Origin: Pseudomonas fluorescens
GTDB lineage: Bacteria > Pseudomonadota > Gammaproteobacteria > Pseudomonadales > Pseudomonadaceae
Length of the DNA stretch: 64,000 nt
Direction of reading: 5' to 3'
Assembly (NCBI RefSeq): GCF_001708445.1
Contig: NZ_CP015637.1
Location: forward strand, 1,923,001-1,987,000
Part shown: positions 20,463 to 42,004 of the stretch, in pieces
Numbering within the stretch: position 1 is the stretch's first letter
Layout: each line of letters starts with the position of its first letter
Notes under the pieces: model-generated
Database searches by the model: none
What the model was told of the DNA's origin: nothing
What the model saw: the letters and a program-made list of their open reading frames with translations, nothing else
Program-made: the position numbers and the translations under genes

Positions 20463-21470
20463 TCAGTCGACCTTGAGCACCAACTTGCCAAAGTTTTCCC
20501 CGTTGAACAGCTTCATCAGCGTCTCCGGGAATGTCTCCAGCCCCTCCACGATATCTTCCTTGCTCTTGAGCTTGCCCTGGGCCATCCAGCTGGCCATTTC
20601 CTGCCCGGCCGCCGCAAAGTTCGCCGCATGGTCCATCACCACGAAGCCTTCCATACGCGCGCGATTGACCAGCAATGACAGATAATTGGCCGGGCCTTTC
20701 ACGGCCTCCTTATTGTTGTACTGGCTGATGGCACCGCAAATCACCACGCGGGCTTTGAGTGCCAGGCGGCTGAGCACGGCGTCGAGAATATCGCCGCCGA
20801 CGTTATCGAAATACACATCCACGCCTTTGGGGCACTCGCGCTTGAGAGCGGCGGGCACGTCTTCGTTCTTGTAGTCGATGGCGGCGTCGAAGCCCAGCTC
20901 ATCCACCAGGAACTTGCACTTGTCGGCACCGCCGGCAATGCCTACCACGCGACAGCCTTTGATCTTGGCGATCTGCCCGGCAATGCTGCCGACCGCGCCG
21001 GCCGCGCCGGAGATCACCACCGTTTCGCCAGCCTTGGGCGCGCCGGTGTCCAGCAGGGCAAAGTAGGCGGTCATACCGGTCATGCCCAGCGCCGAGAGGT
21101 AGCGGGGCAGGGGCGCGAGTTGCGGGTCGACCTTATAGAAACCACGCGGCTCGCCCAGAAAGTAATCCTGCACGCCCAGGGCACCGTTTACGTAGTCCCC
21201 CACTGCAAAGTTCGGGTTGTTCGAGGCAATCACCTTGCCCACGCCCAGCGCACGCATGACTTCGCCGATACCGACGGGGGGAATGTAGGATTTGCCCTCA
21301 TTCATCCAGCCGCGCATGGCCGGGTCGAGGGACAGGTATTCGTTGTGCACCAGCACCTGCCCTTCCTGGGGCGTGCCCACGGGCACTTCCTGGTAGGTGA
21401 AGGTTTCCCGCGTGGCTGCGCCGACCGGGCGTTTGGCAAGCAGGAACTGGCGGTTGGTCTGGGCGGTCAT
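20463..21470 (-). CDS. MDR-family NADP-dependent oxidoreductase (CurA-like)
   Basis: A 335-residue zinc-independent medium-chain reductase. The N-terminal half includes YLSLDPAMRGWMNEGKSY, diagnostic of the leukotriene B4 dehydrogenase/curcumin reductase group; the Rossmann motif is VISGAAGAVGSIAGQIAKIKG and the NADP site VVGIAGGADKCKFL. Enzymes of this group reduce the C=C bond of enones with NADPH in the cytosol. The start MTAQTNRQ follows a GAGT-type weak site. It is transcribed alone towards pyrF; the natural substrate is unknown. Confidence 0.9.
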   Translation of the reverse strand: MTAQTNRQFLLAKRPVGAATRETFTYQEVPVGTPQEGQVLVHNEYLSLDPAMRGWMNEGKSYIPPVGIGEVMRALGVGKVIASNNPNFAVGDYVNGALGVQDYFLGEPRGFYKVDPQLAPLPRYLSALGMTGMTAYFALLDTGAPKAGETVVISGAAGAVGSIAGQIAKIKGCRVVGIAGGADKCKFLVDELGFDAAIDYKNEDVPAALKRECPKGVDVYFDNVGGDILDAVLSRLALKARVVICGAISQYNNKEAVKGPANYLSLLVNRARMEGFVVMDHAANFAAAGQEMASWMAQGKLKSKEDIVEGLETFPETLMKLFNGENFGKLVLKVD

Positions 21471-21515
21471 GGCAAGGACTCTTTAGAAATGAACCTGAGT
21501 GATAGACCCAAGATG

Positions 21516-21617
21516 GCCTGGAAGCAAGGTTGTCCGAGGCGGGCGAATGCCCTGTCTCTTATACACATCTCCGAGCCCACGCCTGGAAGCAAGGTTGTCC
21601 GAGGCGGGCGAATGCCC
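21516..21617. other. Sequencing-adapter artefact: Nextera adapter between 37-bp direct repeats
   Basis: Positions 21552-21581 read CTGTCTCTTATACACATCT followed by CCGAGCCCACG, which is the Illumina Nextera transposase mosaic end plus adapter. It is flanked by two identical 37-base copies of the same genomic segment (21516-21552 and 21581-21617). This is how an untrimmed read end appears when an assembler joins it to the true sequence. All frames through it give well-known contaminant peptides such as LLYTSPSPR and SLIHISEPT. The true genome probably has one repeat copy and about 65 fewer bases. Confidence 0.95.
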
Positions 21618-21762
21618 GCCGATAGGCCGTGATGATAGTGATCCACGACGCCTTATCACTGCGACGCATACAGCCTCAACCGGCCTTCTGATAGTGCTGA
21701 CGCGCCTATCCGGCTGTTGGCTAGACTCGTCCCACGGTAACTTTTCCCAAAGGACATCCTCC

Positions 21763-22524
21763 ATGAGCATGACGTTTTCCGGCCAGGTCGCCCTGGTCAC
21801 TGGCGCCGCCGCCGGTATCGGCCGCGCGACCGCCCTGGCATTCGCAGGTGAAGGCTTGAAGGTCGTGGTAGCCGACCTGGATGTGGCAGGGGGCGAGGGC
21901 ACCGTCGAGCTGATCCGGCAGGCCGGTGGTGAAGCGCTGTTTGTGCGTTGCAACGTCACGCTTGAAGCGGATGTGCAGCAACTGATGGCGCAGACTGTCG
22001 CCGTGTATGGCCGCCTGGACTATGCCTTCAACAATGCGGGCATCGAGATCGAGAAGGGCAAGCTGGCCGACGGCAGCCTGGATGAGTTCGACGCCATCAT
22101 GGGCGTCAACGTGAAAGGGGTTTGGCTGTGCATGAAGTACCAACTGCCGTTGCTGCTGGCCCAGGGCGGCGGTGCGATCGTCAATACCGCATCGGTGGCG
22201 GGGTTGGGCGCGGCGCCGAAGATGAGCATCTACGCGGCCTCCAAGCATGCGGTGATCGGCCTGACGAAGTCGGCGGCCATCGAATATGCGAAAAAGAAAA
22301 TTCGTGTCAACGCGGTATGCCCGGCGGTGATTGATACCGATATGTTCCGCCGTGCCTATGAAGCCGACCCGCGCAAAGCCGAATTTGCAGCGGCCATGCA
22401 TCCGGTAGGGCGCATCGGCAAGGTCGAGGAAATCGCCAGCGCCGTGTTGTACCTGTGCAGTGATGGGGCTGCCTTCACAACTGGCCATGCGCTCGCGGTG
22501 GACGGTGGCGCGACGGCAATCTAG
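21763..22524 (+). CDS. Short-chain dehydrogenase/reductase
   Basis: A 253-residue classical SDR. The cofactor motif TGAAAGIGRA is near residue 12, NNAG near 89, the catalytic serine in NTASVAG near 143 and the YAASK tetrad near 156; the acidic residue in VVADLDV points to NAD(H) preference. The ATG at 21763 has AAAGGA ten bases upstream and is the family start. The frame stays open upstream into the adapter artefact, so automatic annotation may extend it falsely to 21499. The substrate is unknown; the gene stands alone before a MocR regulator. Confidence 0.9.
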   Translation: MSMTFSGQVALVTGAAAGIGRATALAFAGEGLKVVVADLDVAGGEGTVELIRQAGGEALFVRCNVTLEADVQQLMAQTVAVYGRLDYAFNNAGIEIEKGKLADGSLDEFDAIMGVNVKGVWLCMKYQLPLLLAQGGGAIVNTASVAGLGAAPKMSIYAASKHAVIGLTKSAAIEYAKKKIRVNAVCPAVIDTDMFRRAYEADPRKAEFAAAMHPVGRIGKVEEIASAVLYLCSDGAAFTTGHALAVDGGATAI

Positions 22525-28252: not shown

Positions 28253-28314
28253 GCGCGCCACTTACAGCGTAAAGCACACAGCGAAACGCGGTAGGGAGTG
28301 AATGTTGTACGTGT

Positions 28315-28390
28315 GTCCCCTTCGTCTAGTGGCCTAGGACACCGCCCTTTCACGGCGGTAACAGGGGTTCGAGTCCCCTAGGGGACGCCA
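28315..28390 (+). tRNA. tRNA-Glu (anticodon TTC), copy 1
   Basis: 76 bases with acceptor stem GTCCCCT/AGGGGAC, anticodon stem CCGCC/GGCGG around the loop CTTTCAC, T loop GGTTCGAGTCC and an encoded CCA. It is followed after three bases by tRNA-Gly. Confidence 0.98.
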
Positions 28391-28393
28391 TTT

Positions 28394-28469
<76 letters not shown>

Positions 28470-28574
28470 ATTTTTAAGCAGTGTTGCCCTCGGGCGGCAC
28501 TGAGTGAAACCAGGACCACATCTTCGGGTGAGGCCTCTGGGCACTGGAATACACACCATGTGTTTCAGTAGCGT

Positions 28575-28650
28575 GTCCCCTTCGTCTAGTGGCCTAGGAC
28601 ACCGCCCTTTCACGGCGGTAACAGGGGTTCGAGTCCCCTAGGGGACGCCA
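28575..28650 (+). tRNA. tRNA-Glu (anticodon TTC), copy 2
   Basis: Identical to the copy at 28315, shifted by 260 bases. The 105-base spacer between the two pairs is unrelated to either tRNA. Confidence 0.98.
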
Positions 28651-28653
28651 TTT

Positions 28654-28729
<76 letters not shown>

Positions 28730-41781: not shown

Positions 41782-42004
41782 TGTGGCGAGCGGGCCCGTT
41801 GTGGCAAGCAGGCCTGTTGTGGCGAGCGGGCTTGCCCCGCGTTGGGGCGCGTAGCGGCCCTAATACCAGTCTCCCGGTTCTACCAGAAGAAATGCGGTGG
41901 CCTTATTGGGGCTGCTTCGCAGCCCAACGCGGGGCAAGCCCGCTCGCCACAACGGGCCCGCTTGCCACAACAGGCCCGCTTGCCACAACAAGCCCGCTCG
42001 CCGT
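41782..42004. repeat. REP-like repeat cluster forming a long hairpin
   Basis: The left arm (41782-41850) has three units of about 18 bases such as GTGGCGAGCGGGCCCGTT and then GCTTGCCCCGCGTTGGGG; the right arm (about 41908-42004) has the complement followed by four units such as GGGCCCGCTTGCCACAAC. The two arms can pair over about 70 bases. Units vary at one to three positions. This is a tandem, inverted REP-type element (not a CRISPR: no spacers). It fills nearly all of the 368-base gap between the LysR gene and the small gene at 42110. Confidence 0.8.

Follow-up and report, generated by a model that had tools for sequence, protein, structure and literature searches.

A Nextera adapter between two identical 37-base copies in a Pseudomonas fluorescens chromosome, very probably left by the joining of contigs

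In a 64,000-nucleotide stretch of the Pseudomonas fluorescens chromosome (hereafter the window; positions 1923001-1987000 of a 6,641,144-base single contig, G000:C1), a fragment of a sequencing adapter lies between two identical copies of the adjoining genomic DNA. This copy-adapter-copy arrangement, found at window positions 21516-21617, is almost certainly an assembly artefact without biological content, created by an untrimmed adapter and the subsequent joining of contigs. The preliminary description had already read it as an assembly artefact, and this reading is supported by the match to the adapter, by the single copy found in relatives, and by the habit of the same adapter to occur at contig ends elsewhere. 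As such, the insert is an artefact of a familiar and ordinary kind.

The letters CTGTCTCTTATACACATCTCCGAGCCCACG can be read directly at 21552-21581 of the forward strand. They agree with 0 mismatches with the Nextera Read-2 transposase adapter in reverse complement, of whose 34 bases 30 are present. The Nextera mosaic end occupies the first 19 of these bases (21552-21570) and is followed by 11 bases, CCGAGCCCACG, that begin the Read-2 tail. The mosaic end had a single match in the window when up to 3 mismatches were allowed, and 0 of 100 shuffles contained it. The adapter stops at base 30 of 34, and the missing last four bases, AGAC, are present at a second site in the same genome. Among the matches listed elsewhere, 119 of the 126 at sequence ends in one scan, and 116 of 121 in another, also have them. 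A backwards control pattern gave 0 matches in the 6.64-Mb genome, against two mosaic ends, and an exact search of the genome for the TruSeq adapter AGATCGGAAGAGC likewise gave 0 matches.

On either side of the adapter lies a direct copy of the same 37 bases (21516-21552 and 21581-21617, both on the forward strand), 100% identical at a spacing of 65 bases. The C at 21552 is common to the end of the first copy and base 1 of the adapter, while the G at 21581 is common to the start of the second copy and base 30 of the adapter; depending on how these two edge bases are assigned, the repeat is 35-37 bases long. An adapter at 21552-21581 between two identical 37-base copies was what had been described beforehand, and both its letters and the exact repeat were confirmed. 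The sequence can fold into a small stem-loop, GGCGGGC-GAAT-GCCCGCC (21603-21620, forward strand), which is intact at the right copy and cut within its 3' arm at the left copy. The first copy would represent the end of a left contig, and the second copy, which runs on into native DNA, the start of a right contig.

Every fragment of a Nextera library has the mosaic end directly against its genomic DNA on both sides, and reads of short fragments continue into the mosaic end and the tail. The left edge of the insert (21551/21552), where genomic DNA meets the mosaic end and the tail points outward, is a tagmentation junction. At the right edge, adapter base 30 stands directly against genomic DNA. 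Reasoning from the Nextera design, this edge is not a tagmentation product, which argues that it is a computed join made in assembly.

From this anatomy, we infer the following history of reads and contigs. A short tagmented fragment would have ended at approximately 21551. Reads that continued past this point would have picked up Read-2 adapter sequence and stayed untrimmed, through which the left contig would have gained an adapter tail of 30 bases. The contig that follows would have started approximately 37 bases upstream of the fragment end. If the two contigs were then butted together without removal of the tail or merging of the overlap, the result would be the arrangement of copy, adapter, and copy. 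The orientation of the adapter, its truncation, and its occurrence at contig ends elsewhere fit such a read-through, followed by a contig overlap that was left unresolved.

The orthologous site was compared among related genomes. A 601-base query over the site matched 27 of the 38 genomes searched, its own included. In the two best matches, G017 and G004, both flanks were found on one contig, with 81-88% identity, and their left and right alignments overlapped on the same subject bases, an overlap seen in six relatives (L004, L005, L006, L010, L011, and L012). The segment 21420-21799 measures 380 bases in the window, or 315 when the 65 extra bases are subtracted. Loci were taken from 19 relatives, 17 of which had both anchors, some of these extrapolated from nearby alignments; the equivalent segment was 312-319 bases long in 12 of the 17, and outside the expected range in 5 (261, 324, 325, 337, and 355 bases). 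In a displayed alignment of seven sequences, the insert was present in the window only. The comparison with relatives that had been proposed as a check therefore came out as foreseen, with a single-copy, adapter-free site in the relatives examined, all of which are other species. Within the genus, the mosaic end was present in 3 of 398 genomes, including this one.

In two scans of public sequences, the listed matches of the same 30-mer lay almost exclusively at sequence ends. Among the matches listed in genome_contigs, 126 of 128 were located no more than 100 bases from a stretch end and pointed outward (119 stretches), as did 121 of 123 listed matches in viral stretches from IMG/VR (120 stretches). 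Pooled over both scans, 247 of the 251 listed matches were at ends, all 247 pointing outward, and 4 were internal; here, stretch ends were counted as contig ends, some of which may be storage boundaries. Inward-pointing adapters numbered 0 among the 251 listed matches. Of the four internal matches (L039, L059, L208, and L264), two were located close to an end, at distances of 160 and 153 bases, the adapter of L059 was followed by Ns, and no long flanking repeat was found within 400 bases of any of these four adapters. Untrimmed Nextera adapters at public contig ends share with the insert the same 30-mer, the outward direction, and the genomic DNA against the mosaic end. Whereas they sit at the ends of sequences, the tail in the window appears to have been buried when the next contig was joined in a closed chromosome.

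Two further mosaic ends were noted in genomes of the genus. At L144 (G255, C1:2788391-2788409), a mosaic end with a partial Read-2 tail is located inside a contig, and the neighbouring DNA is repeated beside it in inverted orientation; this locus looks like a fold-back chimera. At L145 (G108, C22:93962-93980), a mosaic end together with the Read-1 side of the Nextera adapter lies near the end of a stretch and adjoins a REP-like repeat.

Records of phages provided close parallels. The 30-mer matched 34 of the 50,697 phage records and 9 of the 72,556 plasmid records searched; it was absent from all 20,395 E. coli records. Five phage records were examined, namely those whose match lay far from either end among the 20 that were listed of the 34. 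In all five, the adapter was immediately preceded by one copy of a repeat and followed by another. The Escherichia phages MK327937, MK327945, MK327946, and MK373781 (repeat of 55 bases) and the Streptococcus phage MH000603 (461 bases) share this repeat-adapter-repeat arrangement with the window. Their adapter tails are longer, however, containing index bases in all five, and additionally P7 and an A-rich sequence in the four Escherichia phages, while the tail in the window is 30 bases long and its repeat 37 bases. In MK327945 (L291), the CDS of the hypothetical protein QBO65890.1 spans the adapter; of the three frames on that strand, the only one without stops includes the peptide VGSEMCIRD. 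In MK327946 (L292), two CDSs that are both named baseplate hub meet at the adapter, one of them ending inside it. In these records, adapter sequence does therefore enter the annotation, and the preliminary remark on adapter peptides in protein databases is borne out for at least one annotated record, MK327945.

Three other origins of the arrangement were weighed. The 19-base mosaic end derives from the ends of Tn5, and it might have been left in the chromosome by the genuine insertion of a transposon, either of the Tn5 type or from the laboratory. Tn5 generates a target duplication of 9 bases, however, while the flanking repeat is 37 bases long. In addition, only one end is found and the cargo is absent, the 11 bases that follow the mosaic end are a synthetic Read-2 tail, and the insert is absent from the relatives examined. 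A Tn5/IS50 insertion, which would show two ends and duplicate 9 bases of target, was rejected on the single mosaic end in the window and the length of the repeat, and we consider any such insertion to have practically no chance of being the explanation.

It is also conceivable that only the adapter is artefactual, and that the 37-base duplication is a genuine tandem repeat of this strain. The comparison covered other species only, the closest relatives here being no more than 81-88% identical, and by itself leaves room for a strain-specific duplication. Against this, the relatives are single-copy at the expected spacing, and the phage repeats also end exactly at the adapter, with an identical length of 55 bases in four of them, as a contig overlap would give; a genuine repeat is therefore very unlikely. 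The repeat might, finally, have formed in the library as a chimeric molecule, before any joining of contigs, for which the fold-back-like inverted copy beside the mosaic end of L144, in another genome of the genus, offers a precedent. The copies at the site in the window are direct, however, and the adapter ahead of the second copy is truncated and runs in the wrong direction for the start of a library insert, which leaves this origin similarly improbable. An untrimmed adapter tail, followed by the joining of contigs, remains the preferred reading.

The second mosaic end of the genome is located at 4,729,152, where the adapter is present with all of its 34 bases and one T (G000:C1:4729152-4729186; L002, L290). 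It stands at one end of a 272-kb block (4,729,187-5,001,255). In G017, the DNA that follows the left flank is equivalent to 4,998,585-5,001,199 of G000 on the opposite strand, while the DNA beside the right flank is equivalent to 5,001,445 onward, which indicates that the two ends of the block are exchanged with respect to G017. The flanks have the same relation in G004; the comparison of the block with relatives covers its ends. When G017 was used as query, and itself excluded, both pieces of the left neighbourhood were on one contig and one strand within 3 kb in 10 of 11 relatives, with the pieces on two contigs in G001. For the right neighbourhood, both pieces were on one contig and one strand within 17 kb in 9 of 13 relatives, a count that includes G004 on the basis of one continuous match barely reaching the second piece, and that may include some paralogues, as G017 itself has a paralogue of this piece. 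The exceptions were G018, G020, and G023, in which the pieces were far apart, and G022, in which they were on two contigs.

The last 28 bases before the second adapter are the reverse complement of 5,001,228-5,001,255, and the 77 bases from 4,729,187 are the reverse complement of 5,001,256-5,001,332 (the far end lies within L289, G000:C1:5001200-5001340). When the block is flipped, merging of these 28- and 77-base overlaps restores the flank order of G017. No direct repeat was found around the second adapter, the longest exact one being 8 bases, and the only repeat link there is the stretch of 28 bases shared with the far end of the flipped block. It is therefore likely that the 272-kb block is in the wrong orientation, as its end overlaps merge only if it is flipped. 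Three contigs would have been concatenated with the middle one backwards, leaving the two overlaps behind. A natural 272-kb inversion by recombination between inverted repeats was also considered. One end carries the 28 and then the 77 bases, however, and the other the reverse complement of the 28 and then that of the 77, which do not form a symmetric inverted repeat; this asymmetric layout is better explained by contig overlaps. A genuine inversion, together with a contig break that happened to fall at this site, is a possible alternative.

The overlaps amount to 37, 28, and 77 bases in this genome, and 55 in the four phages. A single k-mer length for all joins was discarded because the overlaps differ. 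SPAdes uses 55 and 77 among its default k values, but not 37 or 28, and no assembler or setting is claimed for this reason. At both genomic sites, the DNA to the left of the adapter ends in the 3' arm of a stem-loop, of which intact copies are found at 21603-21620 and 5,001,2xx; two cases are too few to name stem-loops as the cause of the breaks.

In the window, the insert sits between two divergent oxidoreductase genes. The gene on the reverse strand (20463-21470) encodes an NAD(P)-dependent oxidoreductase of 335 aa, whose best NCBIfam match, curcumin/dihydrocurcumin reductase, is below cut-off (403.1 bits versus 440); its ORF stops short of the insert. The gene on the forward strand (21763-22524, native start ATG 21763) encodes an SDR family oxidoreductase of 253 aa, matching NCBIfam NF004818 over residues 1-253 of 253. 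The peptides LLYTSPSPR and SLIHISEPT, which the preliminary description had listed among the false ORF extensions, are indeed both encoded there.

A false extension of the SDR gene to 21499 had also been claimed, and this claim was borne out with one qualification. The ORF that starts at GTG 21499 is 341 aa long, and includes a false N-terminal extension of 88 codons (21499-21762, forward strand) that contains LLYTSPSPR. When the 65 extra bases were removed in a script, this frame stopped after 22 codons, so that the 341-aa ORF depends on the insert. The own frame of the SDR gene is nevertheless partly open upstream without it: with the insert removed, it stays open over the 64 codons that precede ATG 21763, with a stop 65 codons upstream, and contains three possible start codons. 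An annotator could therefore mis-extend the SDR gene even in the absence of the insert. The intergenic region (21482-21762) also contains several TGATAG/TATCA-type motifs and a GCGAATGC box that are kept in the aligned relatives. These may be operators of the two divergent genes.

Adapters buried in closed genomes probably mark the places where contigs were joined, and the present site is useful as a flag for such joins in this assembly. At two sites or more, contigs appear to have been joined into the single contig with no check of their overlaps, and one of these joins probably inverted 272 kb. Both sites are best avoided in analyses of gene order, promoters, and N-termini of this genome, and ORFs containing adapter peptides should be discarded.

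One other pair of exact direct repeats of at least 24 bases within 400 bases was found in the window, a 157-base repeat at 28313-28469 and 28573-28729, in which a pair of tRNA-Glu (ttc) and tRNA-Gly (gcc) genes occurs twice. This repeat is not an adapter scar, and has the appearance of a natural duplication. An exact inverted repeat of 31 bases is present at 41816-41953, with its arms at 41816-41846 and 41923-41953.
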